Below are positions 33 through 17,649 of a stretch of 22,844 bases of DNA, piece by piece (the first letter of the stretch is position 1; every line of letters starts with the position of its first letter). The DNA comes from a virus. The notes beneath the pieces are model-generated. The model saw only the letters and a program-made list of their open reading frames with translations, searched no databases and was not told the DNA's origin. Made by a program: the position numbers and the translations under genes. Location: positions 1 through 22,844 of IMG/VR virus record IMGVR_UViG_3300035145_002070; one strand, given 5' to 3'.

Positions 33-223
33 TAAAAGTCGAAGGTCATGATAACCTTTATAGAGACCCACAGACAGGGGCAATTGTAAACAAACAGTTG
101 CCCCCTAAAAAGTCTGCGTCACAAACTATTTCAGCAATGAGGAGTGACATAAATACATTGAAGGAAGAACTATCTGACATCAAGCAACTTCTAAGAGAGA
201 TCGTAAAAAATGCCAGCAGTTAA
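29..223 (+). CDS. Small coiled-coil protein, 64 aa, function unknown
   Basis: A 64-aa protein with two parts. The N-terminal half (about residues 1-25) is polar and contains YRDPQTGAIVN, a short motif I associate with small proteins in the structural regions of cyanomyoviruses. The C-terminal half (about 35-60) is a heptad-like amphipathic helix (ISAMRSDINTLKEELSDIKQ, then LLREIV), suggesting a coiled coil that could mediate oligomerisation or fibre/baseplate attachment. The start codon overlaps the upstream stop (ATGA), and its own stop overlaps the next gene by 14 nt (210-223), so translation is probably coupled across all three genes. No enzymatic motif is visible. The gene is likely real because of the overlaps and position; a specific function cannot be given. 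Confidence 0.7.
   Translation: MIKVEGHDNLYRDPQTGAIVNKQLPPKKSASQTISAMRSDINTLKEELSDIKQLLREIVKNASS
148..155 (+). promoter_or_regulatory. Candidate T4-type late promoter octamer CATAAATA
   Basis: CATAAATA fits the NATAAATA form described for T4-like cyanophages (T4 consensus TATAAATA, recognised by the gp55 sigma with the gp33/gp45 system). It lies inside the 64-aa gene, 54 nt before the ATG of the 1618-aa fibre gene at 210, a plausible distance for its own late transcript. Because it is inside a coding region a chance match is possible. Confidence 0.4.
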
Positions 224-3200
224 CGTCGCTAAATCAGACACCTTTGAAATTCAAAGGCAAAAAATCAATACTATTGGATCGCAGATCTTTGCTATCTCCG
301 CTGGTGGCAGTGACCTATCGACTGGTATTCTAAAGTTAGGTGATGGAACCAAAGATGCTCCGTCGCTAGCATTTACCAACGATGCATCTCTTGGTTTCTT
401 CAAGTCGAATCTTGGAGAATTGGCATTTGTTTCCACTAGCAAAAAAGTTTTTGGATTTGACGCATCCAGTCAAGTTGCATTTCAAGATTTCATTGTCAGA
501 AAGAAAAGTCTAGAAACTACTGGTATTTCGATCTCAAATACTGGTGCTGGATATGATGAAGGAACCTACACAGATGTAACTTTTATTGGTGGCACAGGTT
601 CTAATGGAGTTGCCACTATTGTTGTAACTGGTTTTGAAGGAAGTGTTACCGCAGATGGTGATGATTATAATCCAGGAGCATATACTGGAGTCATTCTCGA
701 AGGAGGAACAGGATCAGGAGCAACTATCTCCTTCACTGCTAATACCACACTCGGTTCTATTACAGATGGGGGATCATCTCTCTCACCAGGAATTTATGCA
801 AATGTTCCTCTAACAAATGTTTCTAGTAGCGGATCTGGCGCAGAAGCAACTGTTACTGTTACTGGAACTACTGACCTAACAATTGGTATCACCACAGCAG
901 GATCTGGTCTAAGTGATGAAACTTACACAGACATTCCTCTGCTCAATACTCCAGATCAGACATTCGTCGTAACAGCTATTGCTAATCCTGGAACTCCTCC
1001 ACCAGATAACGTATATTCAATTGATGGAACTCAGCAAGCAACACTTTCTGTTGTAGAAGGAAGAACATACTGGTTTGATACTAGTGATTCTAGTGTAGAA
1101 ACTCATCCTCTTGGTTTTAGAGATGACAATGAAAATGAGTTGCCATCTACTTATTTTGATGTAACTCAGTATGGTGCTGCTGGTAATGCAGGATCTTTCA
1201 CTCAGTTGGTAATTAAACCAGGCGCATCGGAGGCAGTTACAGGACTGACATACTATTGTTCTTCCCATGCAGGTATGGGTGGAACTATTAACTTGACTTC
1301 GGTTGGAGGTTCAACTAACTATGGAACTGGTGGATTGGCAACTGTTGTAGTTGCTACGAATGCAGTTTCTACCGTCACTGTAACTTCTGGTGGTTCTGGA
1401 TATCAGCAAGGAGATTCTTTGACCCTTGCTGGTGTTACTGTTGGTGGTGACGGTGCTGTTCTATCTGGTGGTGTTGCTCTAACAGTTAGTGCTGCTACTT
1501 ACAATGGTGTGGTAACTGATGTTACTGTTACTGACAATGGAACAGGATACGAGAATGGTGATGTCCTTTCTGCCAGCACTTCAGTCATTGGTGGAACAGG
1601 ATCTAGTTTCCAATACACACTATCTCAAGATTCGGGAGCAATTTCTGCTGTAGCTTTCAGTGCATATGGTTCTGGATATACATCTGGAGATGTTCTCACA
1701 CTCCCAGGTTCACTTACTGCAAGCACCACGGTTGCACTAGTAGATGCTCAACCTGTAATTACAGTTTCAAACTTAACATCTACTTCAATTCAAGTTGGTT
1801 ATATAATCACAGGTGCAACAGGAATTCCAAGCGGAGCAGTTGTTACAGGAATTGATACTGATACCAATGCTATCACAATTAATGTTGATACTACTGGAAC
1901 TGGAACTAGCAACGCAACATATACTCCACCTTGGGGAGCACAAACTGGTGCAACTGAATTCCAATACACTATTGGAAATGTCGGTCCAGTAAATTCAGTA
2001 ACTGTTACTAATGGTGGTGCGGGTTATGACGTTGGAGATGTTCTGACTGTTGCTGCTGCCGAACTATCTGCATCTATTAATTATGCAGTTACTGTTGGTC
2101 TTGTTCAAACACTAACATTTAGCGGAACCGTCGCTGATAGTGCAATTAGTGTCGGAGATAATCTAAAGGTTCCTGATGGTGCTGTCACTTCAGTTACTCC
2201 AGCTGGTAATGCAGGAACTATTGATGGTGAATACACAGCTGTTGCTGCTACTGGTGGATCTGGTAGTGGAGCAACATTTGATGTAACCAGAGATTCTCTT
2301 GGAGCTATTTCTAGCGTAACTGCATCAGATGGTGGTGGTGGACTAGGATATGCAGTTGGCGACACTCTAACTATTGCTGGTGCTTTGGTTGGTGGTGCCG
2401 ATATTACTCTAACCGTAGATGAAGTAACCGTATCAACTTTACTTCCTGTATATAAAGTAGCGTCAACTGGTGGAAATATTGACAGTGTTACTCTCCTTGC
2501 TGCTGGTCTTGCCGCAGCTGCTGTTCTTCAAAAAGATGGAACCAACAATACATACACAGTTGCTACCGCTACTGCAGACTCAAATGGATTCTTTTTGAAT
2601 GGAGACTTTGCACCAGAGTTTACTATTTACGAAGGTAACACATATGTCTTTGATTATGCTTCTATTGTAGAAGAATATGACTTTGCTCTATCTGAATCTC
2701 CAGATGGATCTAATACCACAGTTACTGGTATTACTTCAGTTGCAACGCTAGGAAGCACTACTCTTACACTATCCAGCGTAGCGGGTATCATTCCAGGGAT
2801 GGCAGTTTCAGTTACTGCTGGTGATGGAGCATTCCCGATTGGAACAGTAGTTGAATCCATTAATGGAAGTGATATTACTGTATCTGCTAACCCATCACTA
2901 GGTGGCGCTGTAACACTAACATTTACTGGATCAACATTCCTACAAGGTGTCACGACAGTCAATGGTGTTTTGACTCTTAGTGTAAATGCAAATACTCCAG
3001 ATCTATATTACTTCTCACCACTCAACCCTGGATTTGGTGGCAATTCTCTTCTGACGTTCGATGCAAACAATCCAAAAGTATTCGGTGATGGAGCAGAGTT
3101 TACAGTAACTAGTGTTCTCACTGAAGATCTAATCAAGGGAGAAGTAGCATCAGGAAATCTGCTAGCAGAAAGTGCAACTATTACTACTGATCTCGATGCT

Positions 3201-5066
3201 GTAAACATTACTGCATCAGAATCAGTAACTGCGTTAACAGCAACACTAACTACCTTGAACGCAACAAACATTCAAGGTAGTATTATTAGTTTGTCATCTT
3301 CTCAGACTAATATCAATTCTGTTTTCAACTTTGGAAATGGTCAACTAACAATTGAATCTGCAACTGGAGATTTTACAACTGCAGGAGAACTCAAAACAAC
3401 TGGTCAACTGAATGTAAATGATTCTCTGCTTGTAAATTCAAATGTAATTAGTGCAGCTGCTGGTCTTGATATTGAATTTGCACCACCAGTAAACCAAGTT
3501 GCAAAGGTTGATGCATCAACAGCATTTGGTATTGCTGCTGGTTCTGAAGCAGATAAACCTGTTACTGCATATAATGGTTACATCAGATTCAATACTGATA
3601 GTAATCAGTATGAAGGATATAGTGAAACAAATAGTTCTTGGTCTTCTCTTGGTGGTGTTCGTGACCTTGATGGAAACACTACTATTCTTGCTGAAGAGAC
3701 TGTAGGTGCTGATGATAACACTCTATGGTTTATTCAAGACGGCACAAATACTCTCAAGTTTACTCCAAACTATGTTGAGTTTATCAATGTCAAGAAACTA
3801 AGATCACTGAATGTTAATGCTCCTGCCTTTGAAGAATGGAGAGCAAATACTAATGTAGATGTTGGTGATTATCTGAAGTATGGTAACGATGTTTATGAAG
3901 TTACTGGAGCAGGAACGACAGCAACATCTGGAAACGAACCAAATGATACTAGTGGCAATCCATTTATTAATGGAAGTGCGACTCTTGTATACAACACAAC
4001 TGCTGTTGCTCCAATTACTATTGAAGAAACTTCAGAATTCAGAATTGCTCCACAAGGAGGAACTGATTTTGTAGTTAATGGAGAACTGAGACTCTCTGGC
4101 AATAAGTTCTCGTCAGATATTTCTGATATCGAAATTGCACCAAACTCTGGTCAAAAGGTATTCATCAACGCAACAACATCTCTTGTAATTCCTGTTGGCG
4201 ATAATAATTCTAAGGGAAGTCCTGCTCAAGGTTCTATTAGATATAACACTGACGATACTACATTTGAAGGATACGATGGTGTTCAGTGGGGTTCTCTAGG
4301 AGGAGTTAAGGATATTGATGGAGACACTCTAATCAAACCAGAGAGTGTTCCAAACGCTGACGAAGATACTCTATTCTTCGTCAATGCAAATGCTGAGTCT
4401 ATGAGACTCACTACAACTGAACTACAATTTGATGCTGTAAGCACTATTACTTCTCAGACATCAAATAGTTTGACTATTACTGCAGGAAGTTTGTTCTTGG
4501 GTAATAATGTAGATACAACACTAGACAATACATCATCAACTTCAACTTTCCTACATACATCTAAAGAATTCTTTGACATCGGTCTATCTGTTGGTCTAAA
4601 TGTAGATCCTCTGTTGAGACTAAATGATAATGGTGATATTCTTTATAACCTAGGATTCGGAACAGGAACATTTAGTGGAGTAACTCTACTAGATACAGAT
4701 CTAAGATCATTTGAACTAGCACATACTAGACAGTTTACTACCAAATATGATCTGACCAAAGGAACGATTGATCAAGGTGCAGCGGTTCTATATAATCCAT
4801 CTACTGATGAAGCTGCAAAAGTTACTATTACTGCATACAATTCAAACAGCACACACAAAGAGGTTCTTGAATTCACTGTTATAGATAGAGGATCTGATAT
4901 CTTCTATACAGAAATTGGTAATATCAAAACTGGTCAAGAAATTATCAGTGCTGAGTTTGACTTTAACGCTAGCGGTGAGGTTCGCGTTACCACAACTCTA
5001 GATTCTGCTTTAAACAATAACAACTTGGTCAATGTAACTGTGGTTTCGCAAATCATCAAAAAATAA
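210..5066 (+). CDS. Very large fibre-like virion structural protein (1618 aa) with cupredoxin-like domains
   Basis: A 1618-aa Gly/Ser/Thr/Asn/Val-rich, almost wholly beta-predicted protein of the kind that forms tail fibres or baseplate appendages in cyanomyoviruses. Visible order: N-terminal region of about 100 residues (MPAVNVAKSDTFEIQRQKIN; likely attachment end); four GTY/GAY-type Gly-rich repeats (about 110-255); a cupredoxin-like domain (about 267-362; ligands H299, C350, H353, M356); five GxGYxxGDxLTL modules (Tyr at 398, 447, 490, 606, 714); a degenerate, interrupted cupredoxin-like domain (about 778-948); a region rich in short T/N/S strands; and two copies of an IRYNTD-FEGYDG-WGSLGGV-DIDGDT unit (about 1115-1195 and 1335-1415) typical of cyanophage fibres. 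It has no signal peptide or membrane segment. The ATG at 210 is supported by AGAGAG upstream and overlap with the previous gene. Virion surface location and a host-contact role are inference; no family assigns the whole chain. Confidence 0.85.
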   Translation: MPAVNVAKSDTFEIQRQKINTIGSQIFAISAGGSDLSTGILKLGDGTKDAPSLAFTNDASLGFFKSNLGELAFVSTSKKVFGFDASSQVAFQDFIVRKKSLETTGISISNTGAGYDEGTYTDVTFIGGTGSNGVATIVVTGFEGSVTADGDDYNPGAYTGVILEGGTGSGATISFTANTTLGSITDGGSSLSPGIYANVPLTNVSSSGSGAEATVTVTGTTDLTIGITTAGSGLSDETYTDIPLLNTPDQTFVVTAIANPGTPPPDNVYSIDGTQQATLSVVEGRTYWFDTSDSSVETHPLGFRDDNENELPSTYFDVTQYGAAGNAGSFTQLVIKPGASEAVTGLTYYCSSHAGMGGTINLTSVGGSTNYGTGGLATVVVATNAVSTVTVTSGGSGYQQGDSLTLAGVTVGGDGAVLSGGVALTVSAATYNGVVTDVTVTDNGTGYENGDVLSASTSVIGGTGSSFQYTLSQDSGAISAVAFSAYGSGYTSGDVLTLPGSLTASTTVALVDAQPVITVSNLTSTSIQVGYIITGATGIPSGAVVTGIDTDTNAITINVDTTGTGTSNATYTPPWGAQTGATEFQYTIGNVGPVNSVTVTNGGAGYDVGDVLTVAAAELSASINYAVTVGLVQTLTFSGTVADSAISVGDNLKVPDGAVTSVTPAGNAGTIDGEYTAVAATGGSGSGATFDVTRDSLGAISSVTASDGGGGLGYAVGDTLTIAGALVGGADITLTVDEVTVSTLLPVYKVASTGGNIDSVTLLAAGLAAAAVLQKDGTNNTYTVATATADSNGFFLNGDFAPEFTIYEGNTYVFDYASIVEEYDFALSESPDGSNTTVTGITSVATLGSTTLTLSSVAGIIPGMAVSVTAGDGAFPIGTVVESINGSDITVSANPSLGGAVTLTFTGSTFLQGVTTVNGVLTLSVNANTPDLYYFSPLNPGFGGNSLLTFDANNPKVFGDGAEFTVTSVLTEDLIKGEVASGNLLAESATITTDLDAVNITASESVTALTATLTTLNATNIQGSIISLSSSQTNINSVFNFGNGQLTIESATGDFTTAGELKTTGQLNVNDSLLVNSNVISAAAGLDIEFAPPVNQVAKVDASTAFGIAAGSEADKPVTAYNGYIRFNTDSNQYEGYSETNSSWSSLGGVRDLDGNTTILAEETVGADDNTLWFIQDGTNTLKFTPNYVEFINVKKLRSLNVNAPAFEEWRANTNVDVGDYLKYGNDVYEVTGAGTTATSGNEPNDTSGNPFINGSATLVYNTTAVAPITIEETSEFRIAPQGGTDFVVNGELRLSGNKFSSDISDIEIAPNSGQKVFINATTSLVIPVGDNNSKGSPAQGSIRYNTDDTTFEGYDGVQWGSLGGVKDIDGDTLIKPESVPNADEDTLFFVNANAESMRLTTTELQFDAVSTITSQTSNSLTITAGSLFLGNNVDTTLDNTSSTSTFLHTSKEFFDIGLSVGLNVDPLLRLNDNGDILYNLGFGTGTFSGVTLLDTDLRSFELAHTRQFTTKYDLTKGTIDQGAAVLYNPSTDEAAKVTITAYNSNSTHKEVLEFTVIDRGSDIFYTEIGNIKTGQEIISAEFDFNASGEVRVTTTLDSALNNNNLVNVTVVSQIIKK
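540..965 (+). repeat. Tandem Gly-rich Y-T-D/G repeats in the fibre N-terminal part
   Basis: Four degenerate protein repeats at about residues 111-252: GAGYDEGTYTDVTFIGGTGS, then versions centred on YNPGAYTGVILEGGTGSG, LSPGIYANVPL and LSDETYTDIPLL. Each is about 35-45 residues and the pattern is a GxGY or equivalent turn, a short loop ending in a Y-[TA] strand, and a Gly-rich turn. They resemble the GxGY modules elsewhere in the window and probably arose by internal duplication. Confidence 0.6.
1008..1298 (+). other. Cupredoxin-like domain with full type-1 copper ligand pattern
   Basis: Residues about 267-362 of the 1618-aa fibre. The strand VVEGRTYWFDTSDSS leads to ETHPLGFR (H299), then a loop region, then LTYYCSSHAGMGGTI (C350, H353, M356). 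Known of the family: blue-copper cupredoxins bind Cu through an upstream His on one strand and a C-terminal Cys-His-Met loop. The CxxHxxM spacing seen here matches the short loop of amicyanin rather than the longer loop of plastocyanin. That all four ligands sit in the right order and near the expected strands is seen in the sequence; copper binding is inference. It could instead be a structural beta-sandwich binding another metal or none. Confidence 0.65.
1380..2400 (+). repeat. Five GxGYxxGDxLTL modules in the fibre
   Basis: Modules with the pattern V-T-V-x(2,3)-G-G-x-G-Y-x-x-G-D-x-L-T-[LVI] have their tyrosine at residues 398, 447, 490, 606 and 714. Examples are GGSGYQQGDSLTLAG, GTGYENGDVLSAS and GAGYDVGDVLTVAA. 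Intervals vary from 43 to 116 residues because other short beta units lie between them, for example IPSGAVVTGIDTDTNAITIN near residues 540-570. The same module type recurs in the 3371-aa fibre and in gp14 of this window. Confidence 0.7.
2541..3053 (+). other. Degenerate, interrupted cupredoxin-like domain
   Basis: Residues about 778-948 parallel the domain at 1008-1298. IYEGNTYVFDYAS matches VVEGRTYWFDTSD, and LYYFSPLNPGFGGNSLLTF matches TYYCSSHAGMGG. The metal ligands are all replaced: the upstream His by Y823/D824, Cys by F935, the loop His by L938/N939, and Met by F942. Between the two halves lies an extra unit of about 85 residues (roughly 830-914, including TLSSVAGIIPGMAVSVTAGD) that looks like an inserted beta module. 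The alignment is by eye. Confidence 0.5.
3553..4450 (+). repeat. Two copies of a fibre unit (IRYNTD / LGGV-D-DGDT)
   Basis: The copies are at about 3553-3790 and 4210-4450 (residues about 1115-1195 and 1335-1415). Both share the order GYIRFNTDSNQYEGY or GSIRYNTDDTTFEGY, then W(S/G)SLGGV, then DLDGNT or DIDGDT, then a loop with ADDNTLWF or ADEDTLFF, then an L-F or L-F-D strand. I recognise this unit as common in cyanomyovirus fibre-like proteins. It is probably an internal duplication along the shaft. Confidence 0.65.
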
Positions 5067-5076
5067 GGGGTAGGCA

Positions 5077-5589
5077 ATGGCAAACAATTTAGAAAATTTT
5101 GATTCTGTTGGAGGATTTTCTGTAGCAAATACAGAAATGATTAATGAGTTGAAAGATGTAAAGAACGTCAACTCATTAGAACTGAAAAATTCTTTCTATG
5201 CTAGCGATAGCAGTGCTTCTCATTATATTCTGAGAGGTTTGAATACTTCTATTCTTTCTGTTGATAATGTCAATACTCTAATTGAATTACCAAACAATAC
5301 TATTAATTTTGTTGAGTCGCATATCATCGGTGTAAATGATACTGGCGCTGGGCACGTATCATTGAAATTGGATGCTGTAGTTTCTGTTGATTCTGCGGGA
5401 GCTAAAACATCATTCTCCACAATGGAAACTATCATCGAAGATAGTATTCCAGCAGATCAAACATGGACTATTGAACCTTTCACTGGTGGTGCTGCAAACA
5501 GATTTAGTTTTCAGACTACAAGGATTGGAACTACTCAGAATATCAAATGGATTGCATACGTTAAAGTAGTAAGTATTGCCTGGCAGTGA
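5077..5589 (+). CDS. Putative virion structural protein, 170 aa
   Basis: A 170-aa protein starting 10 nt after the end of the large fibre gene, with a good ribosome binding site (AAGGGG at about 5064-5069). The N-terminal 60 residues are polar and mixed (MANNLENFDSVGGFSVANTE). The remainder reads as alternating beta strands, for example GHVSLKLDAVVSVDSAGAKT and NIKWIAYVKVVSIAWQ, consistent with a small beta-sandwich. It has no signal peptide, membrane span or catalytic motif. Position between two giant fibre genes suggests a fibre tip, connector or baseplate accessory protein made from the same late transcript. I do not recognise a named family. Confidence 0.75.
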   Translation: MANNLENFDSVGGFSVANTEMINELKDVKNVNSLELKNSFYASDSSASHYILRGLNTSILSVDNVNTLIELPNNTINFVESHIIGVNDTGAGHVSLKLDAVVSVDSAGAKTSFSTMETIIEDSIPADQTWTIEPFTGGAANRFSFQTTRIGTTQNIKWIAYVKVVSIAWQ

Positions 5590-5635: not shown

Positions 5636-8600
5636 ATGAGCTTTAAGTTTAATTCTGACAGGGAACAAATCAGAGCAATCTCTCCTTCTCTTATCGGAGA
5701 CAACGAACTCACTATTAGAGGTGGGGTTGGATCTAATGAGAGGGAGATTCTTAGAACGCTACTTGACCCAGGAACCAGTCTACCTCGCGTTGGTATCAAC
5801 CGAACTGGTCAAAGAATTGATACTATTTCTGTAACCAACCCAGGTGGAGGTTACACTGATATCCCGACAGTTACTGTTGCGCCTCCTCCAGCTGGTGGTC
5901 TTCAAGCGTTTGCGTCTGCTCAGATTTCTGAAGGTAGACTTGTTGGTGTTGTTATTGATAATCCTGGTGCTGGTTATGCAGATGCTCCTGCTGTAAGTAT
6001 CAGTGGTGGAAATGGTGTAGGTGCTGCTGCAACTGCATTTCTAGACACCGTTGACTTTGAACTTGACATTAATGGTGCTATCAGAACATCTACGTCTATC
6101 ATTTCTGATACTGCGCGAATTCTAAACCTAGACATTGAAAACTTAGTTACTCCTGACGCACAATACAGAGCACCAAACCTCAAAACATTCATTAACAACA
6201 CAGGTATCCCTTGGGCGCGTGACACATTTATCCAGAAGAATACTTTTGTATATCGCGGACCTAATGTTTATCAGTCACTGAATGAAGGAACCACTGATGC
6301 AAATCCACTGAATCCTCCTCTTCATACTGATGGTATTGTATTGAATGGTAACGACCTGGAGGATGCTGTTCCAGGTGTTCTGTTTAAACACATTGGTTTC
6401 CGTGTATCAAACCCCAACGAAGTTTACTACAACGAAACTGGCGAAGCTGGTATCTATCCAAGATCTATCACACCTCTCTTGGGTGATAAGTCTGACAAGA
6501 TTGCAACTACAGAATACGTCCTCAATCTAGCAACGAATGACGTTGGTGGTCGTATCTATGTTTCGCAGCAGATTGGTAACGACGAGAATGATGGTCGTTC
6601 TGCTGTCAACCCAGTTAGAACCATTAAAAGAGCATGTCAATTGGCATGGGCAACTCCTGGAGTCAAGGAGTCGATCATCGTTTCTGGTGGTGACTATGTA
6701 GAAGATAACCCCATTTCAATTCCACCTGATGCATCCGTTGTTGGTGACAACCTGCGTCTGGTTATCATTAGACCAAATAACCCAAGAAAGCACATCTTCA
6801 AGTTCGGTGACAAGAACTATGTCATCGGTGTAACTTATAGAGACTATGTTGACTCGGATGGAGATGAGCAGCATACCTGGGACTTTGCTATGGTCTTTGA
6901 CGATAAGCAAAGAGTTACTTATGACTACGATGTCAATGGAGACTTTGGAACTAGTTTCCCAATTGGTCACCAAGTTTTTGGTGAGCAAATTTTTAGAGCA
7001 ACTTTCCAGTCAAACGCTGGTCTACAAAATCTAACTGCTAACCAAACACTAAGAGGTGAAAATGCTGGTGGTCTGATTTCTACTAGAAATGTAAACTTTA
7101 ATTTAACGTCAGGACCATCTGCATATCTAACAGGAACATTTGATTTTGTTGTAACCAATGGTTCTATTTCAACTGGTGAAACACTATTCTTTGCTGGTAG
7201 CGGCACACAAAGATTCCAGATCAATACTGCATACGATCTAAATGATCTTGTATGGACTGAAGATCATCTATATCAAGTAACAGTTGCTGGAACATCTGGA
7301 ACAACCAACCCAACACATGATGCTGGTGCTGTGACAAATGGAACAGCTGAGTTTACATATTTGAGAGATACTTACTCACTAGTAACCACTGATATTATCT
7401 CAATTCGAGCTGAGGGTGAGGTTGTCTTTGAAGACACTGATATTGTGTCTGTTCTTCCTATTTCTCGCATCGACTTCTCTCAGCAAGGAACTGATGCAGT
7501 CGCTACTGGTGGTTTTGGAGACTATGGAACTCCAGAAGATCTCGGTGGTATTATCTTCTATACCAACCCACTGGTAGAAGATGATAACATTCATGACTAC
7601 AAAGAAGGTCAGATGATCGAGATTACTGGTATGCCTACCAGCGCACCAGATCTATCTGCTTTGAATGGTAAGCAAAGAATCTATAAGGTCATCGAAGATC
7701 CTGATGGCAGATCAAGAAGATTTGTTATTCCTAAGAAGTATCCATCACTAACAAACGACAACTTCACAGGATTCTCTCTTGATGCTTCTGTTAAGTCATA
7801 TTCTAAGTCAGTAACTTTCTCACTTCTAAACTCTCCATTTAAATTTAATGAAGCAACTCCTGTTGCAAGGAGATTCCAAGATGCTGGTCTGCAAATCAAG
7901 AACAATAGAGAATTTATTGCAGATGAAGTAGTTGGTCGCATTAATGATGAATTCAAGAAAGATTACTTCGCTGTTTATGACATTGGTGGAACACCATCTA
8001 CAACACTAACACCATCAAACGTAACTTATGATCCTGCAACTGGTGTTGCAACATTCACTGTTACGAGTCACGGTCTCTCTAATGGAGATGGTGTAAGAAT
8101 CATTGATGAATCTATTACGTTCACTTGTGCCATGGATGGTAACAAGACTGAACACTCGTATCCAGATTCTCATCATTACTCTAGTGGCAAGTCTCTTCCT
8201 GTTGAAAACGCTACTACAAATACATTTGAACTTAACGTTGGTGTATCTGGTCCTGACCAGCAGTTTACTCCTATTGCAGCGTCATATAACCCCGCTACAG
8301 GTGATCTAGTCCTAGACTTGGATACTGCTCATGGTCTCTCTGTAGGTGAAGGTATTGTCATTGACGACAACTCATTGTCCTTCACTTGCTCGATGGACAA
8401 TTATGATTCTGTCAAGACATATCCACGTCCAGGTATTGATCCTTATGCTGGTAGATCAATTCCTATCACAGCAGTTCCATCTGATACCGAGATCACACTA
8501 AACGTTGGTATTTCTGGTCCAAATAAAACATTCACCCCAACTGATGCAACATATGATCCTGTAACTGGTGACCTGACTGTCACTGTGGGTCAGCATGGTC

Positions 8601-11600
8601 TTGGAGTCGGTCGTGGTATTGTTATTGAGAACAATTCATTCACATTTACATGTGCAACAGATGGCAACGTAGAAGAGAAGACTTATCCACGTTCTGGTCA
8701 GGACCCATATGCAGATGGTAAGTCTATCCCCATTACTGCAGTTGGAAGCACATCACATACCGTAACTGATGCAACCTATAACCCAGTTACTGGCGTAGTC
8801 GAACTGACTATTCCAAGTCATGGATTTACTCAAGGTGACTACATTAAACTAGATGATCTTTCGCTGGTCTTCTCTTGTGAACTAGATGGCAACGTAACTA
8901 ATAAATCATATCCCCGTGCTGGATATGATTATCCATCTGGTCGCTGGTTGGAGATTAGCGAAGTAGCAGCAAATACATTTAGAATTGATATCGGACCTTC
9001 GTCCTATACTGGCGCACATACTTTTGTGAGTGCAGTTGCCAATGGTCTAGATCGTCAAGATGGAACATTTACTGTTAATGTTGGTGCAATTTCAAGTCCT
9101 TCTGATCAGTCTGCACATACATTTGTAAGTGCTGAAACTAACGCGATCAGACATAATCCACAGTCTGCTCATACTTTCCAAGGTGCAACTTCCAATGCAA
9201 TCAAGCATCTACCACAGTCTGCACATACATTCATTAGATCTGCTCAGGACTCACTAGTTGTAGGTGGTTCTGAATTCAAGATCTACTTGGGAACCTCTAG
9301 ATTCATCCATGAATATGTAAGCGGAGGAACCGTTACATTCGGAGGAACTACAGCAAACATCACAAACTTTGTTTACGATAATGTTATCACTGGAACTGCT
9401 GTCGTTTCGATGGATCAGTCTTTGGGAGCACTAGCAGAAGATGATATCGTCCAGATTGCAGATATTACGCTGCGTTGTGTTGTAGATGGAGTAACTACAG
9501 AAAAAACTTATCCAAGTTTCAATATTCCAGTTAGTGATGACAAGTGCCGTAGAGACATCAGACACTTCCTCAATGCACTAGTAGAAGACCTTGAGTTTGG
9601 AAGCAACAACAATATTGTTTCTGCAGCAAGAAGATATGTAGATGGAACAAACACTCAAATTGATTTTGTTGATAACGAGATCATTCAAACTGTTCGTGCT
9701 ATTGAGTATGCTAGAGAACTGGCAACCTATGCTATGAGCAAATGGAGAACTGGAAACAGAACTCCAACAGATCCTGTCTACACACCTCAGTATTCTACTC
9801 TACCAAGATATTTTGATGACACCATCATTGATGATGGACAATCACCTGCTTGTGCTAACGTAGCATCTGCTATTGATACCCTATCGTATCTGTTTGTTGA
9901 TGTTCTAGCAAATGATTCTTCTGGAACTGTTCTAGATGCTGCATATCTGATCGCTAGAAATAGACATCATATTGCAGATGAAGCATACAACCTTGCTGTT
10001 GCTAATTATCCATCTCTTGGTCTCATTAATATTGATGAGCGTAAGTGTCGTAGAGACATCAACTTCATCCTTAGTGGATGGATTAGAGACCTTGTTCTCG
10101 GAGGAAACTCTGGCACAGTAACTAATGCTGAAGCATACTTCAACGGTGGTCAACTTGCTGGCATTCCACAATCAGAACTTGGTGCAACTCTGTTTGCTTT
10201 TGAAAAGACCAGAGATCTAGCAATCGCAGCAATGCGTGGTTGGAAGACTGCTGCAGGAACTGCATATCCTGCTGCTACATACACACCAATCCCAAGATTT
10301 ACTGATGCTACTATTCTTGCTGATCCTAATGGAAACCCACTATGTGCTGACGTAGAAGCAAGTATCACAACTCTACATGCTCTACTAGAAGATATTCTAG
10401 ATGGCACGATTGCTCCTGGTGCTACAGAGAAAAATACAGGAACTCTATTTGATATTGCTGGCATAATCAATTATGCAGATAGCGTTATCACTGATGCCAG
10501 AGGAAATGTCATCACCGTTAAAGGAACCTACGATGACTTCCCAATCATCGAAGCATCTCCATACACCCAGAACTCTTCTATCATCTCAAGACTTGGTGGT
10601 AGTGGTGCTCTGATTGATGGTTCTAAGGTCAAACAACCTAACTGCCCAAGAGCAGGTCTTACTCAGCAGGGAGAAGCGAAGTTCCCCAACCAGGGTAAGT
10701 CGATGGTTGCATCTGCCTTCACGATTGTTTCTGAAGGTGGTATTGGTTATAAGATCATTGAAGATGGTTATACTCAGTTGGTTTCTGTCTTCTGTATTTT
10801 CTGTGAAGATGGTGTTCTTTCTGAGACTGGTGGTTATGCATCTATCACCAACTCTGCTACAAACTTTGGTATCTATGCGCTTAGAGCAACTGGATTCAGA
10901 AGAGAAGCATATGAGTTTGACGTTGCTACTATCACCAACGTATCATCTACTCCAACAGGAAGAACTATCTTTAGTGTTAGTGGTCTCGGAAGAGAACCAC
11001 TTGAGCACTATGTTGTCAAGATTGATGGTTATGAGAATGCCAATCCAGACATCGAATACTTTGTTGATGTTGTAGAAGGCGTTACCGTTGGTCCTCCTTT
11101 CTCTGCTCAGATTACTCTTGAATCTGGTTCTGGTGGTAGCGCAGAATTTAGAGATCTTTCTACCAATGCTATCGTCAGTCTTGCATCTCTGGTTGGAGAA
11201 ACGGTCAGACTGCACAGACCATCTATCGTTAACTCCTCCTCACACACCTGGGAATATGCTGGTTCTGGAACCAGTTATCTTGCTCTACCTGAGAACGGTG
11301 GTGTTAAGGTTGAGGCAAACGAACAAGTCTCCGAGAACTATGGTAGAACATACGTTTCTGGAACTGACGAACTTGGTGACTTCAAGGTTGGAACGTTCGC
11401 AAGAATTGAAAACAGAACTGGTAACATCACCTTTACTGGAACGGTTACCATCTCGGAAGTTGAATTCTTGAAACTGAAAGGTGGCGACGTTGTTGTTACT
11501 GGTTTCGACAACAGCAACACACTGGGTGGTGCTAACACCAGTGACTCCAAACTGCCAACTCAGAAAGCAGTTAAGGACTTCATCACTAACAACCTCGGTC

Positions 11601-14600
11601 CTTTCATCAACAAACCATACTCTACGAACCCAGTTCCCAGAGCACTGGTTGAACTTACTGACTCTGGTAAGATCTCCGAAGATCAGATTCCACCCCTACG
11701 TCCTTTCCAAGTCTATACTGTAGGACCAGGAGAAAGAACTTCAGTTGAAGGAGCACTTGCTGGCGACATTGCAATTGAGCAATCCACCCCACCACAGTCT
11801 TTCATTCTGAACAATGATAATGATAGTCTGTTCCTAGGATTCCCTGTTGATTCTACCCTATCATTTACTATTGGAGATATCTTCACTGGTGATTTGTCTG
11901 GAGGTAAGATCCAAGCAACTGAATACAGAACTGGTGTTCTTTATCAAATCAACCTAACCGATTCTGGTTCTGGTTATATTACTCCACCTGTTGTTACGAT
12001 TGCTGGAACTACTCAATCAGGTGGTGTTCAAGCAGCTGCTACTACTCAAATCGCTAATGGTCAGGTTGTCCTGATTGAAATTGTAGACTTCAATGGTTTC
12101 ATTGGTGGTAAAGGATATACCTCACCACCTACCATTACTATCGCTGCTCCTGCTGGATCAGGAACACAAGCAACCGCTGTTGGTTTGATTGAAAGTAGAC
12201 TTTATGGTGATATTGTCAACAACATCAAGATTACTGAAACTGATGATATTCAGTCAAGTGATCTTCCCGCAGAGACCGTTAATATCACTCGTGTTGTTAA
12301 CACATCTGGTAGCAACACACTCAACTGGATTTCACTATCATCTGATAGCATCTCCGCAAACCAGATTACATCTGGTATTATCTCAACTGCACGTCTTGCA
12401 TCCAACGCATCTGGAGAAACCAGTGCTGCTAACTCCTTCACCTTCCTAAGAGGTGACCAAGCATACGCACCTGCAGTTCAAACACTGAAAGGACCTGAAA
12501 CAAGATACTTCGGTATTCTTAAAACAACAGCTTCTACTAACGCATCTCAGTTGGTATTTGAAGGATCAACTCAGTTTGGTCTGGGTCATGAAGTCAGAAA
12601 TAATGTAGTAGGTATTCAAGCAGATACCAATATTGATGGCATTCTAACAGAAAATGGAGAGACGACAGTTAGTATTGATAAATTCCTAACTGCAACTCTA
12701 CCTGCTGGAACAGTTATTGAATTTGATAGAGGTCGTTCACCACTCACATTTGAATCTTCACAGACTCAAGGTGAATTTGTTGAGGCGATCGTTATTCAGA
12801 ATGGTGGTAGTGGTTATGATAATGGTCCATTCTTCAACGTTGCTATCGGCGGTGGAAATGGAACTGGACTGAGAGCAAATATCTTCACGACCAATGGTTC
12901 AGTTACTGGTGTAACTATCGTTTCTGGTGGTGAAGGATATGGTCAGAACACTGAACTTCAAAGTGTTGACTTCATTTGCGACATTCCATCTGAACTCGGA
13001 ACTAATGGAACTGGTCTAGTTCTTCTTGCAAAAGTTACTACTGTTCTTAGACAGTATGCTAATGTTTCTATTGACATCGACAGAGTTACTAACCAAACTC
13101 TAAATGAAGATGCTTTCGGAACACTTGGTGTTGCTAGATTTAAGAAATCTCAGTTTGTCATTGGACAGTCTGGAAATGGTTCTGTAGAAATTAACACTGG
13201 ACCTGACTCTGGTCTTGATGCTGATACACTTGACGGCGCACAGGGTGCGTTCTACTTGAACGCTGGTAACCTGAATGCTGGTTTCCTTAAGATTGAAAGA
13301 CTTTCTGGAACCTATAACATTGGAATTTCTGGTAGATCTGGTTCTACCATTAAACTAATCACATCAACCAACTCTCCAACTGGTAACCTAGCACCTAACG
13401 AATTCAGTGAAGGTGTCATTTGTGATACCAAGAACAACACTGCTGATGGTCTGTTTGACGGTGGCACACGTCACATGGTCATGACCTTTAGAGCAGGTGG
13501 TTCTGACTTCGATGCTACATTTGGTGGTGTCAGACAACTTGCAATCACGGATGGAACTCCTCTAAACGGTGGCAACCTGTGGTTGCGTGGTTCTCATACA
13601 AGTCCTGCTAACGCATTTGGTGGTTGGAATCTTATCTGGCATTCCGAAAATGATGGTGTTGGATCAGGACTAGATGCTGACCGTTTGGATTCAAGACAGG
13701 GTTCATGGTATCAAAATGCTGTTAACATGAACGAAGGAATTCTTGCTAATAACAGAATTCCTGTTCATCAGACAGCAAGAGATTTCAATGAAAAGATTAG
13801 AATCGTAGATTGGACTGGAACTCCTAGATACCAAATCCTAATTCGCGATGAACTTCTTGGTGGTTCTGCTCCATTCCTTCCTGGTGAAACTGTAAACCTA
13901 TATGATGCAGGAGACAATGGTGTTGGTTCTATCTCCATCTCTAAAGTAACTCCTTATCAGGATGTAAATGATGCTTCCAATAACTTCACGATTCTTGTTG
14001 GTAGTTTGACCACTGGTGATTTCGTTGATGCTAACGGAAACACTATCGCTAAGTTTATTGGAACTGGCGGTGTTGCAAACGCATACGAATTCCAAGACTG
14101 GAGTATCTCCAACCTAGATGATAATGCTGATGGAGATGTAGATGGAACGTTTGAAGTCATCGACATGATTTCTGACGGTGGTAATGCCAGACTGAAACTA
14201 GGCAGAATTGATGGTCAGCAGTCATCTGATCCATCGATCTACTTCAGATCTTCACAATCACCTGCAACTAACTACAACTCAGCACTCATCGCATCTGGTG
14301 GTAATGCTGGTGACGGTAGTGGTTCTCTAGAACTGAAAGTTGCTAATGAGTATGCTTTCACTATCAATGGCAACTACTTCTGGAACCAAGCAAACATTGA
14401 GTTCCATACTGCTAATATTGCACCTACAACTAATCAGCAAGGTGATATCACTGTAAGATCTGGCGTAATGCGAGATGTTAACGGTAACTTTGAAGCAGGA
14501 GTAATTACAGCAGACTTGACTGGTGCTGCTTCAGAAAACGTTCTGAAGGCAGGCGACACCATGTCTGGTTCTTTGACAATTGGTGGTGTTACTGCTGCTA

Positions 14601-15751
14601 ACCAGGCACTAGAAGTTTCTGGTAGAGCAGACTTCCTGAGCAACATTACTGTTGCTGCTAACTTGGCAGTTGATGGTGATACTCTATTTGTGGATACTTC
14701 TAAAGAATCTGTCGGTATCAACGTTGGAACTACTCTAACAACTGGTATTGGTCTCGATATTCTCGGTGGAGCAGTTGCTGCTCTAAGACTGAGTGGTCCT
14801 GATAACCCAACTGGACACCAACTTCTAATTGATGGTTCTAGAAATTCTTATTATGATGATGCCAACCATGCGATGATGTTCATCTCGTCTGGTGCAGCAG
14901 TAAGCACACATCCTGGCGAAGGCGCACACTGGATCTTCAACGGTAGAGCATCTAATAGAGACTTCATTTTCCGCAACAACTCCAACAACAAACTAACCAT
15001 TCAAGGTGATGGTGGTCTCAAGATTGAGAACAGCGGAACCAATAATGGTCTTGAAGTTGACAACATGATTGTTGGCATCGCAGGTCTGACACTTGGAACT
15101 ACTGCCAATAACGATGAAGCTCCAATCTACTTCCTAGGAAACACTGGTGGTCTCGTAGGTGGTGGTCCTGACCAGTTGAGCAACTTCCGTATGGGTAACG
15201 GTATCATTAGTGGAGACATCTTTGAGATTACCGCTAATGATGGAAGTGTTGGTGCTACTTCTTGGAAGGCAACCCCAGCACTTGCTATCCAAGGAACCAA
15301 CAACAGAGTTGCTATCAACACTGATTCGTTCCAAGGCAATGATCCCGAAGACAACACCCTCAGAACTTACACTCTAAATATTGAGGGTGATGTCAACTTC
15401 AACGGAACTCTATACCAGAATAACGGCGAGTTCGTTACTTCTCGTTGGACTGAAGCACCTAACGAAGCAGATATCTACAGACCATCGTTTGTTGGTATTA
15501 ACTTCCAGAGTGATAGAGATCCAGAAGAAGCACTAGAAGTTGAAGGTAACATTGAAGTCAGTGGAAACCTACAAATCAATGGAGATGTTCAGTGGCTTGA
15601 TACTTACGGTGTCATCAGAACAACTCGTCAAACGATTGATCAGGACATTACGGTCCCCAACTCAACCAACGCATTAAGTCACGGTATTGTTAATATAAAT
15701 AATAGCAGGACTGTTACAGTTGGTGCTGGAGCAATCTGGACAATTGTATAA
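5636..15751 (+). CDS. Giant tail-fibre-like structural protein, 3371 aa
   Basis: A single uninterrupted 3371-codon frame, far longer than T4 long-tail-fibre proteins (gp34 about 1290 aa, gp37 about 1030 aa). Order by residue: N-terminal MSFKFNSDREQIRAISPSL (likely attachment end); paired GxGY modules (Tyr 73, 114); a beta-helix-like region from about 306 (GRIYVSQQIGNDENDGRS, then an IIVSGGDYVEDNP turn) resembling pectin-lyase-fold N-termini; four tandem Cys repeats (about 792-1124) and a half copy (C1281); four SAHTF repeats; two helical KCRRD units (C1304, C1471); a second likely beta-helix stretch (about 1630-2000); further GxGY pairs (Tyr 2114/2161 and 2394/2435); two GLDAD-LD units (2526, 2678); and a C-terminal beta region ending GAGAIWTIV. 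No C-terminal peptidase or chaperone domain is evident. It is probably a trimeric fibre or large baseplate appendage used in host recognition; that role is inferred. Confidence 0.87.
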   Translation: MSFKFNSDREQIRAISPSLIGDNELTIRGGVGSNEREILRTLLDPGTSLPRVGINRTGQRIDTISVTNPGGGYTDIPTVTVAPPPAGGLQAFASAQISEGRLVGVVIDNPGAGYADAPAVSISGGNGVGAAATAFLDTVDFELDINGAIRTSTSIISDTARILNLDIENLVTPDAQYRAPNLKTFINNTGIPWARDTFIQKNTFVYRGPNVYQSLNEGTTDANPLNPPLHTDGIVLNGNDLEDAVPGVLFKHIGFRVSNPNEVYYNETGEAGIYPRSITPLLGDKSDKIATTEYVLNLATNDVGGRIYVSQQIGNDENDGRSAVNPVRTIKRACQLAWATPGVKESIIVSGGDYVEDNPISIPPDASVVGDNLRLVIIRPNNPRKHIFKFGDKNYVIGVTYRDYVDSDGDEQHTWDFAMVFDDKQRVTYDYDVNGDFGTSFPIGHQVFGEQIFRATFQSNAGLQNLTANQTLRGENAGGLISTRNVNFNLTSGPSAYLTGTFDFVVTNGSISTGETLFFAGSGTQRFQINTAYDLNDLVWTEDHLYQVTVAGTSGTTNPTHDAGAVTNGTAEFTYLRDTYSLVTTDIISIRAEGEVVFEDTDIVSVLPISRIDFSQQGTDAVATGGFGDYGTPEDLGGIIFYTNPLVEDDNIHDYKEGQMIEITGMPTSAPDLSALNGKQRIYKVIEDPDGRSRRFVIPKKYPSLTNDNFTGFSLDASVKSYSKSVTFSLLNSPFKFNEATPVARRFQDAGLQIKNNREFIADEVVGRINDEFKKDYFAVYDIGGTPSTTLTPSNVTYDPATGVATFTVTSHGLSNGDGVRIIDESITFTCAMDGNKTEHSYPDSHHYSSGKSLPVENATTNTFELNVGVSGPDQQFTPIAASYNPATGDLVLDLDTAHGLSVGEGIVIDDNSLSFTCSMDNYDSVKTYPRPGIDPYAGRSIPITAVPSDTEITLNVGISGPNKTFTPTDATYDPVTGDLTVTVGQHGLGVGRGIVIENNSFTFTCATDGNVEEKTYPRSGQDPYADGKSIPITAVGSTSHTVTDATYNPVTGVVELTIPSHGFTQGDYIKLDDLSLVFSCELDGNVTNKSYPRAGYDYPSGRWLEISEVAANTFRIDIGPSSYTGAHTFVSAVANGLDRQDGTFTVNVGAISSPSDQSAHTFVSAETNAIRHNPQSAHTFQGATSNAIKHLPQSAHTFIRSAQDSLVVGGSEFKIYLGTSRFIHEYVSGGTVTFGGTTANITNFVYDNVITGTAVVSMDQSLGALAEDDIVQIADITLRCVVDGVTTEKTYPSFNIPVSDDKCRRDIRHFLNALVEDLEFGSNNNIVSAARRYVDGTNTQIDFVDNEIIQTVRAIEYARELATYAMSKWRTGNRTPTDPVYTPQYSTLPRYFDDTIIDDGQSPACANVASAIDTLSYLFVDVLANDSSGTVLDAAYLIARNRHHIADEAYNLAVANYPSLGLINIDERKCRRDINFILSGWIRDLVLGGNSGTVTNAEAYFNGGQLAGIPQSELGATLFAFEKTRDLAIAAMRGWKTAAGTAYPAATYTPIPRFTDATILADPNGNPLCADVEASITTLHALLEDILDGTIAPGATEKNTGTLFDIAGIINYADSVITDARGNVITVKGTYDDFPIIEASPYTQNSSIISRLGGSGALIDGSKVKQPNCPRAGLTQQGEAKFPNQGKSMVASAFTIVSEGGIGYKIIEDGYTQLVSVFCIFCEDGVLSETGGYASITNSATNFGIYALRATGFRREAYEFDVATITNVSSTPTGRTIFSVSGLGREPLEHYVVKIDGYENANPDIEYFVDVVEGVTVGPPFSAQITLESGSGGSAEFRDLSTNAIVSLASLVGETVRLHRPSIVNSSSHTWEYAGSGTSYLALPENGGVKVEANEQVSENYGRTYVSGTDELGDFKVGTFARIENRTGNITFTGTVTISEVEFLKLKGGDVVVTGFDNSNTLGGANTSDSKLPTQKAVKDFITNNLGPFINKPYSTNPVPRALVELTDSGKISEDQIPPLRPFQVYTVGPGERTSVEGALAGDIAIEQSTPPQSFILNNDNDSLFLGFPVDSTLSFTIGDIFTGDLSGGKIQATEYRTGVLYQINLTDSGSGYITPPVVTIAGTTQSGGVQAAATTQIANGQVVLIEIVDFNGFIGGKGYTSPPTITIAAPAGSGTQATAVGLIESRLYGDIVNNIKITETDDIQSSDLPAETVNITRVVNTSGSNTLNWISLSSDSISANQITSGIISTARLASNASGETSAANSFTFLRGDQAYAPAVQTLKGPETRYFGILKTTASTNASQLVFEGSTQFGLGHEVRNNVVGIQADTNIDGILTENGETTVSIDKFLTATLPAGTVIEFDRGRSPLTFESSQTQGEFVEAIVIQNGGSGYDNGPFFNVAIGGGNGTGLRANIFTTNGSVTGVTIVSGGEGYGQNTELQSVDFICDIPSELGTNGTGLVLLAKVTTVLRQYANVSIDIDRVTNQTLNEDAFGTLGVARFKKSQFVIGQSGNGSVEINTGPDSGLDADTLDGAQGAFYLNAGNLNAGFLKIERLSGTYNIGISGRSGSTIKLITSTNSPTGNLAPNEFSEGVICDTKNNTADGLFDGGTRHMVMTFRAGGSDFDATFGGVRQLAITDGTPLNGGNLWLRGSHTSPANAFGGWNLIWHSENDGVGSGLDADRLDSRQGSWYQNAVNMNEGILANNRIPVHQTARDFNEKIRIVDWTGTPRYQILIRDELLGGSAPFLPGETVNLYDAGDNGVGSISISKVTPYQDVNDASNNFTILVGSLTTGDFVDANGNTIAKFIGTGGVANAYEFQDWSISNLDDNADGDVDGTFEVIDMISDGGNARLKLGRIDGQQSSDPSIYFRSSQSPATNYNSALIASGGNAGDGSGSLELKVANEYAFTINGNYFWNQANIEFHTANIAPTTNQQGDITVRSGVMRDVNGNFEAGVITADLTGAASENVLKAGDTMSGSLTIGGVTAANQALEVSGRADFLSNITVAANLAVDGDTLFVDTSKESVGINVGTTLTTGIGLDILGGAVAALRLSGPDNPTGHQLLIDGSRNSYYDDANHAMMFISSGAAVSTHPGEGAHWIFNGRASNRDFIFRNNSNNKLTIQGDGGLKIENSGTNNGLEVDNMIVGIAGLTLGTTANNDEAPIYFLGNTGGLVGGGPDQLSNFRMGNGIISGDIFEITANDGSVGATSWKATPALAIQGTNNRVAINTDSFQGNDPEDNTLRTYTLNIEGDVNFNGTLYQNNGEFVTSRWTEAPNEADIYRPSFVGINFQSDRDPEEALEVEGNIEVSGNLQINGDVQWLDTYGVIRTTRQTIDQDITVPNSTNALSHGIVNINNSRTVTVGAGAIWTIV
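5822..6040 (+). repeat. GxGY module pair near the N-terminus of the giant fibre
   Basis: Residues about 63-135 contain two copies of the unit V-x-N-P-G-x-G-Y-x-D-x-P-x-V-[TS]-[VI]. The first is TNPGGGYTDIPTVTVAPP (Tyr 73) and the second is DNPGAGYADAPAVSISGG (Tyr 114), each followed by a Gly/Ala-rich strand and a 41-residue period. It is the PTVTI subtype, closer to the gp14 insertion than to the GDxLTL subtype of the 1618-aa fibre. Confidence 0.7.
6545..6960 (+). other. Probable right-handed beta-helix entry region of the giant fibre
   Basis: Residues about 304-440. The sequence RIYVSQQIGNDENDGRS followed by NPVRTIKRACQLA and then IIVSGGDYVEDNPISIPPDA matches the layout of pectin-lyase-fold phage and bacterial proteins: a yVs-GNDsnDG start, an RTI-kA helix, and a first rung with G-Y-E-NP. 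It is followed by VVGDNLRLVIIRPNNP. The fold is an inference from the pattern; tailspikes and fibre shafts commonly use it. No polysaccharide-cleaving residues can be assigned. Confidence 0.5.
8009..9000 (+). repeat. Four tandem Cys-containing repeats of about 75-88 aa
   Basis: Each repeat reads roughly T-x-[AV]-[TS]-Y-[DN]-P-[AV]-T-G, then a strand, then HGL or HGF-x-x-G, then S-[FV]-[TS]-F-[TS]-C-x-[MTL]-D, then YP-R-x-G-x-D-Y-x-[SA]-G, then a final strand ending in [NI]-[VI]-G. The conserved Cys is at residues 831, 918, 1006 and 1081 (spacing 87, 88, 75). A shortened fifth copy, ITLRCVVDGVTTEKTYPS, has C1281. The repeats are clear by eye and I recognise similar TFTC-DG-YPR units in other cyanomyovirus fibres. 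Confidence 0.85.
9011..9257 (+). repeat. Four short SAHTF repeats
   Basis: The giant fibre has GAHTFVSAVANGLDRQ, then SAHTFVSAETNAIRHNPQ, SAHTFQGATSNAIKHLPQ and SAHTFIRSAQDSLVV. The spacing between the second, third and fourth copies is about 18 residues. The short regular period and the S-A-H-T-F strand followed by a polar turn look like rungs of a narrow beta shaft linking the Cys repeats to the next domain. One intervening stretch (about 1140-1155) separates copy 1 from copy 2. Confidence 0.75.
9539..10440 (+). repeat. Duplicated helical KCRRD units in the giant fibre
   Basis: There are two copies of an alpha-helical unit of about 150-165 residues, unusual within an otherwise beta-rich fibre. 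Copy 1 begins DDKCRRDIRHFLNALVEDL (C1304) and copy 2 begins ERKCRRDINFILSGWIRDL (C1471). Each continues with a G-N-N or G-N-S turn, a helix ending in T-R-D-L-A or A-R-E-L-A followed by [AM]M-x-x-W, a YTP-x(2,8)-R[YF]-D segment, and C-A-[ND]-V-x-[AS]-[SA]-I-x-T-L. The Cys pair (KCRRD and the later C-A-[ND]-V) is conserved in both copies. Confidence 0.75.
11936..12985 (+). repeat. Two further GxGY module pairs in the giant fibre
   Basis: The tyrosines are at residues 2114 (GSGYITPPVVTIAG), 2161 (GKGYTSPPTITIAA), 2394 (GSGYDNGPFFNVAIGG) and 2435 (GEGYGQNTEL). The first pair is separated from the second by about 230 residues of shaft sequence that includes LASNASGETSAANSFTFLRG. They are the same module type as at 5822-6040 and in gp14. 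Confidence 0.7.
13211..13720 (+). repeat. GLDAD-LD-xQG repeats of the giant fibre
   Basis: Two copies at residues 2526 (GLDADTLDGAQGAFYLNAGN) and 2678 (GLDADRLDSRQGSWYQNAVN). Known of phage fibres: DADTLDG-type motifs mark repeated collar or shaft units in many tail-fibre proteins, including T4-like ones. This supports assignment of the giant protein as a fibre. Confidence 0.75.
15694..15701 (+). promoter_or_regulatory. Perfect T4 late promoter octamer TATAAATA
   Basis: This is an exact match to the T4 late promoter consensus, lying in the last codons of the giant fibre gene (encoding the Ile-Asn-Asn stretch) 67 nt before the ATG of the 294-aa fibre gene at 15769. It could start a separate transcript for the adhesin and assembly chaperone. 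The codons are AT-rich, so chance cannot be excluded, but it is the only exact TATAAATA I noticed on the + strand. Confidence 0.55.
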
Positions 15752-17049: not shown

Positions 17050-17649
17050 ATGGCACTTGATAATATTTTTTCTACCCCTTTGGGTAGATATGAGATTTTG
17101 TCTGGAAGCGATCAGATGACATCTGATCTAGCAAAACGTCTCTATGAAATCGAAGAAGAGTTTAGTGGAGATTATGATCCATATTCTCTAAAAGGGAAGT
17201 CTGCATTTCACTCACCAGCAAACTTGGTGTTTGGTGATGATAAAACTTCTGTTGCTTTGCGACGCATGATTTTTGATGTGTGTCGTCTGTATGCAGATGA
17301 GCAAGATATTGCTTTTCCACCAGATCTGTCAGGACTAAAGAAGTTTGATTGTTGGGGTGTTATTCTAAGACAGGGAGACTACTCAACAACACACTCACAT
17401 CCAGATTGTAAATTTTCTGGAGTATTATATGTGAAAGTTCCTGAGTCTATGTCAGAAGAGGAAGGAAATCTAGTCTTAATTGATCCTAGACCTGGAGCAA
17501 GATCTTCTGGTTTGTATGGATCTAGAATTTTCCAAGTAAAACCAGAACAAGGAGTAATGTATTGCTTCCCTAACTGGTTGGAACACTATGTAGAATCACA
17601 TTCATGTGAGGGAGACCGTATCTCCATCTCATGGAACATCGATTGGTAA
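17050..17649 (+). CDS. Putative 2OG-Fe(II) oxygenase, 199 aa
   Basis: A 199-aa soluble protein with the layout of the putative 2OG-Fe(II) oxygenase family common in T4-like cyanophages (the PF13759 type). The N-terminus IFSTPLGRYEI matches the family's IF-TP start. The core has THSHPDCKFSGVLYVKVP (H115, H117, D119), an L-x-x-x-D-P-R segment (LVLIDPRPGA), a GVMYCFPNWLEHYV segment with the distal ligand H179, and GDRISISWNI with R190 in the place of the residue that binds 2-oxoglutarate C5-carboxylate. Length fits the family. Such enzymes use Fe(II), O2 and 2-oxoglutarate to hydroxylate a substrate; the substrate here is unknown. Its place between fibre genes and the neck operon suggests late expression and possibly virion-protein or host modification, which is inference. 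The first-sphere ligand assignment (H115 or H117 with D119) is by eye. Confidence 0.82.
   Translation: MALDNIFSTPLGRYEILSGSDQMTSDLAKRLYEIEEEFSGDYDPYSLKGKSAFHSPANLVFGDDKTSVALRRMIFDVCRLYADEQDIAFPPDLSGLKKFDCWGVILRQGDYSTTHSHPDCKFSGVLYVKVPESMSEEEGNLVLIDPRPGARSSGLYGSRIFQVKPEQGVMYCFPNWLEHYVESHSCEGDRISISWNIDW

Follow-up and report, generated by a model that had tools for sequence, protein, structure and literature searches.

A probable cupredoxin domain with a predicted type-1-like metal site in a phage virion structural protein and its marine relatives

Amicyanin and plastocyanin (PF00127, Copper-bind; NCBIfam models TIGR02657 and TIGR02656) are free soluble electron carriers. The domain described here resembles them in the strand order, in the position of a His before the middle strand and in the length of the C-x2-H-x2-M loop, as well as, through a sister family, in an end-to-end profile match; it differs in being a bead in a 1618-aa virion protein, in carrying a Pro after the first His and in scoring under the Pfam cut-off. 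Plastocyanin is also known as a separate gene of cyanophages (PMC3037559), as the earlier note on this DNA had correctly stated. The product of this gene, petE, belongs to the same superfamily as our domain, and the two often share a phage genome (14 of 21 records); however, it is exported as a protein in its own right, about 110 aa long, and its direct profile similarity to the domain is not significant, for which reason a recent capture of petE was rejected. As for other metal sites, phage fibres have known or proposed iron-binding HxH motifs (PMC11705849). The HxH iron sites of the T4 gp37-type fibres (Ferrojan/Trojan Horse hypothesis) are similar to our case in having conserved metal ligands in tail fibre proteins, but they have another fold, His-only ligands and another presumed metal. 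No description of cupredoxin or blue copper domains in phage tails or virions was found among the open-access papers searched.

The window, i.e., the whole analysed stretch of 22,844 bases, is an IMG/VR virus record; it shows synteny to the part of the Prochlorococcus phage Syn1 genome (Kyanoviridae, Vellamovirus) that encodes structural proteins. Its features considered below are as follows.

210-5066, + strand: virion structural protein of 1618 aa (PHROG 6005), 92% identical to Syn1_099 of Prochlorococcus phage Syn1
1008-1298, + strand: cupredoxin-family domain with the full ligand set (residues 267-363; AlphaFold2 pLDDT 93; hhalign to the plastocyanin-like sister family 98%, E 2.9e-13; 342 distinct homologous domains)
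1104-1106, + strand: H299, predicted N-terminal His ligand, starting the strand at model residues 40-44
1257-1277, + strand: ligand loop C350-S-S-H353-A-G-M356, with the spacing of amicyanin (CTPHPFM)
2571-3047, + strand: second copy of the domain, without the ligands (residues about 788-946; N-terminal half E 4e-9 against the iterated profile)
5077-5589, + strand: neighbouring virion structural protein (PHROG 5449)
5636-15751, + strand: ORF of 3371 aa, corresponding in position, by synteny, to the Syn1_101 tail fibre protein

In Syn1, Syn1_099 comes downstream of gp8, and further downstream are gp13-gp16 and a tail fibre protein of great length. The earlier note had called the 1618-aa protein a fibre; the annotation of Syn1_099 gives only 'virion structural protein', adjoining baseplate and tail-fibre genes. 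H299 and the C350-x-x-H353-x-x-M356 motif are located in the ORF exactly as had been claimed (the loop codons are at 1257-1259, 1266-1268 and 1275-1277, respectively), and the loop indeed has the length of that of amicyanin. The whole protein contains one Cys, five His and four Met residues (including the start Met), so that the claimed ligands make up four of these ten residues: two His, one Met and the only Cys, C350. The ligand Cys is likewise the sole Cys in gp9 of Syn9, S-SM1, S-RIM8 and ACG-2014d. The CxxHxxM motif appeared in none of 20,000 composition-preserving shuffles of the protein, which rules out its chance origin. An HxH iron motif was also considered for this protein and rejected, as His residues occur only at positions 299, 353, 1449, 1505 and 1549.

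The AlphaFold2 model of the window domain, built with 60 aligned relatives, is confident (pLDDT 93) and contains eight strands or bridges. H299 opens a middle strand, C350 ends the penultimate one, and H353 and M356 lie in the loop before the last strand, which we take to be the plastocyanin layout. In plastocyanin, the residue after the first His is usually Asn or Ser; in the window domain it is Pro. The structure prediction and fold search suggested in the earlier note thus gave a confident beta domain with cupredoxin-like ligand placement, the fold search itself being less favourable: Foldseek returned no significant match for the model, with Ig-like domains in the first places (best E 0.009, TM 0.47-0.51), which is insufficient for membership among Ig-like domains as well. 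Because of this outcome, the fold was assigned by homology. Direct profile matches of the window domain to cupredoxins were also weak. A Pfam search of the whole 1618-aa protein gave nothing, Copper-bind reaching just E 0.16 for the domain, below the Pfam cut-off; direct hhalign of the domain with the phage plastocyanin was not significant (4%, the best of 100 column shuffles being 3.3%); and a PDB profile search with alignment A2 yielded antibodies and one pseudoazurin, all weak. Five members of the same alignment match PF25489, a eukaryotic At5g54830-like domain (best E 8e-4), which is possibly a distant relative.

The similarity to the cupredoxin superfamily is indirect, via a sister family. 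When the PF00127 model was run over 21 phage genomes, it detected, besides petE in 14 of them, weaker-scoring domains inside long structural ORFs; these domains, together with their IMG/VR relatives, constitute the sister family, which resides in the same kinds of phage protein as the window domain. All 42 of its members match PF00127, and 41 match the amicyanin and plastocyanin NCBIfam models; its profile finds plastocyanin, amicyanin and rusticyanin chains in PDB at E of about 1e-6, and its structural model (pLDDT 95.8) has plastocyanin as the top Foldseek match (E 2.7e-4, TM 0.51). Alignment of the window and sister families by hhalign gave 98% probability and E 2.9e-13 with the H, C, H and M residues in register, and the profiles of the two families recovered the same copies in 391 of 392 cases. 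H299, C350, H353 and M356 therefore occupy, in register with the ligands of the sister family, the canonical positions of a type-1 copper ligand set (two His, one Cys, one axial Met). Since the sister family matches plastocyanin and amicyanin by both sequence and fold and is homologous to the window domain, the cupredoxin relationship proposed earlier gains support, and the window domain is, as far as can be judged from sequence comparison, very probably a cupredoxin homologue with a selected metal site.

Further support for such a site comes from the behaviour of the ligands among homologues. All four are invariant in the 60 aligned relatives and belong to the seven most conserved positions among the 342 distinct homologous domains. 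Out of 324 complete, distinct domains, 309 retain the whole set; in the others, exactly one ligand was never lost, two were lost once, three in 12 cases and all four in two. For comparison, in quartets drawn from the other most conserved positions, the share of deviating copies that deviated at a single position had a median of 86% and a minimum of 76%. A shared metal would be expected to produce the all-or-none pattern of the ligands, although the 15 losses represent fewer independent events, as some degenerate copies are related to each other. An example is the 'YCYY' group (L278, L280, L283, L295, L298 and L300), in which His, His and Met are all replaced by Tyr while Cys is kept, possibly in connection with a different function. 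Two of the three IMG/VR scans for the wider family (those with 334 and 540 relatives) were seeded on Cys-containing motifs, one of them also with His; for this reason the scan was repeated with the ligand-free segment between H299 and C350, and only this test lacks the seed bias. It retrieved at least 485 relatives, and all four ligands were present in 76 of the 77 complete copies, the sole exception (locus L140) having lost H299 and M356 together. The set is also kept in the matched copy of 20 out of 21 GenBank phages picked by whole-domain tblastn, and it persists between domains that are only about 40% identical. Hence, the co-conservation of the four residues, proposed in the earlier note as a check, is seen in the aligned homologues, where they are kept or lost jointly, and this, together with the register with the sister family, supports its claim that all four type-1 ligands are present. 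As read from these alignments, the four-ligand site is under selection; conservation does not tell which metal it would hold.

The domain is not peculiar to the 1618-aa protein: by the sequence searches, it is a widespread family across hundreds of marine phage tail proteins, located in gp9, the proximal tail fibre and baseplate proteins. With the window domain as the query, tblastn found 50 phage records, and those with a stated habitat are all marine (phages of Synechococcus, Prochlorococcus, Pelagibacter and Methylophilales); a second member of the family found 329 records. Most of the matches listed for the latter fall towards the C-terminal end of gp9, which connects the baseplate wedge with the long tail fibre, and in cyanophages the domain lies at the C-terminus of this protein. 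The fetched loci contain in total 429 copies of the domain, distributed over 308 ORFs with no more than five in any one. A search of 84,980 cellular species genomes found only ten loci, a lower bound because the cellular pattern search was narrow; most of them lie on Pelagibacter contigs of possible phage origin. Two of the ten encode SAR86 lipoproteins of 181-183 aa (L197 and L200), one being clearly chromosomal. Cupredoxins are usually exported, and these lipoproteins are exported too. The SAR86 lipoprotein has the same domain with all four ligands (38% identity), but it is a single-domain cellular protein encoded amid fatty-acid metabolism genes (in L200, at 5925-6470, next to a 976-aa ORF). 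In Cyanophage PSS2, gp080 (L102, 3995-4333) represents the domain as a stand-alone 112-aa gene past the tape measure genes, which lacks the ligand set (D, A, T and M).

The 1618-aa protein itself harbours a second, degenerate copy of the domain, which, like the breadth of the family, is a point missed by the earlier note. In this copy the first His is replaced by Tyr, and YYFSPLNPGFGG stands in place of YYCxxHxxMGG, so that all four ligands are gone; the copy is also split by an insert of about 50 aa. This insert is similar to a further bead of the protein, at about residues 525-565. The second copy is present in orthologues from other genera as well, at partly different stages of loss (His and Cys are kept in S-CAM4). 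A copy without ligands indicates that the fold can serve as a bead even when it holds no metal; against this background, it is all the more significant that the first copy has kept its ligands. At window positions 1391-2371, a 33-nt repeat that encodes SGYxxGDxLT beads occurs in four spaced copies.

Taken together, residues 267-363 are probably a cupredoxin domain (plastocyanin/amicyanin superfamily) in a phage tail or baseplate protein, with a selected type-1-like metal site that would be loaded with copper after lysis. According to this proposal, the reduced apo-domain would be synthesised in the cytoplasm and built into the tail, and copper would be taken up at or after lysis, when the particle meets host copper and seawater. 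By pinning together the His loop and the Cys-His-Met loop at one end of the sandwich, the metal would stiffen the bead; a cupredoxin may thus have been recruited as a virion bead, in which copper stabilises or tunes the tail. Because a soft Cys/Met set is kept instead of a generic zinc site, copper is the most likely metal, and the domain may possibly act in redox chemistry or surface recognition during adsorption; retention of the weak Met ligand, too, speaks for copper over zinc. We regard the presence of copper in the virion as reasonably probable. With respect to function, the chances of a mainly structural or assembly role appear about even, and a redox or receptor role seems somewhat unlikely.

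A different metal, zinc or iron, held as a purely structural staple like the HxH iron in the T4 gp37 fibre tip, is an unlikely reading: zinc or iron staples rarely need a Met, whereas here the axial Met is kept as strictly as the three strong ligands, and the motif is not HxH. Its precedents are a zinc-bound cupredoxin-like domain in PDB (4hcg) and the iron described in phage fibres (PMC11705849). Still less likely is a virion without any metal, in which a cupredoxin captured from a host serves only as a beta-sandwich spacer and the four residues are left over from it for structural or folding reasons. The ligand-less copies found beside intact ones agree with it, as they point to a fold useful without metal, and phage proteins fold in the copper-poor cytoplasm; such a relic, however, should lose its ligands one by one, and single-ligand losses were not seen among the complete domains, nor does such a relic fit the intact sets of strongly diverged domains.

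That the domain is Ig-like, with Cys, His and Met conserved for another reason, e.g., thiol chemistry or cross-linking, is very improbable. The top Foldseek matches of the window model are Ig-like, and Ig and cupredoxin sandwiches share their topology, but those matches are not significant (TM 0.5), the homologous sister family matches cupredoxins first, and a shared metal would account for the loss of both His and the Met together, whether Cys is lost with them or not. Finally, the bead, copper-loaded or mimicking a cupredoxin, might dock on a host envelope partner or exchange electrons or metal with it, as a copper counterpart to the Trojan-horse hypothesis for iron. The placement of the domain in gp9, proximal tail fibre and baseplate proteins and its occurrence in SAR86 lipoproteins are consistent with such a tool, which we nevertheless find doubtful, as we know of no host envelope partner, the domain lies inside the chain and not at a known receptor-binding tip, and phages of both photosynthetic and heterotrophic hosts carry it.

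Returning to the copper-loaded domain as the preferred explanation, its four preserved ligands and its recurrence in hundreds of marine phage tail proteins mean that these virus particles may carry copper. Only tentatively can this be extended to many marine phage virions, including most cyanophages with the gp9 type carrying the domain, as copper-loaded particles whose blue-copper beads, recruited into baseplate and fibre proteins, would help to sense redox state or to exchange metal with the host surface. Phage tail metal sites have so far been mainly His-based iron or zinc; a conserved site of the blue-copper type, present in gp9 as a core connector and in many other structural proteins of phages abundant in the ocean, would represent a novel class of metalloprotein in virions. 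If the proposal is true, tailed phages would include a class of copper metalloparticle, viruses would join the marine copper cycle, and the domain would acquire a functional name in hundreds of 'virion structural protein' entries; the prediction is directly testable as copper per virion. In T4, each particle has 18 copies of gp9, and a loaded gp9 would accordingly contribute some 18 Cu or more to a virion.

Two more features of the window concern its other structural genes. The head closure protein gp14 (18761-19879) has 372 aa against 292 aa in Syn1; the identity stops at residue 202, past which the window protein has GGSGY-type beads that occur in tail and baseplate PHROGs too. A gene of a 2OG-Fe(II) oxygenase (17050-17649; PF13759, E 2.8e-18) is located amid the structural genes and is present in Syn1 too.
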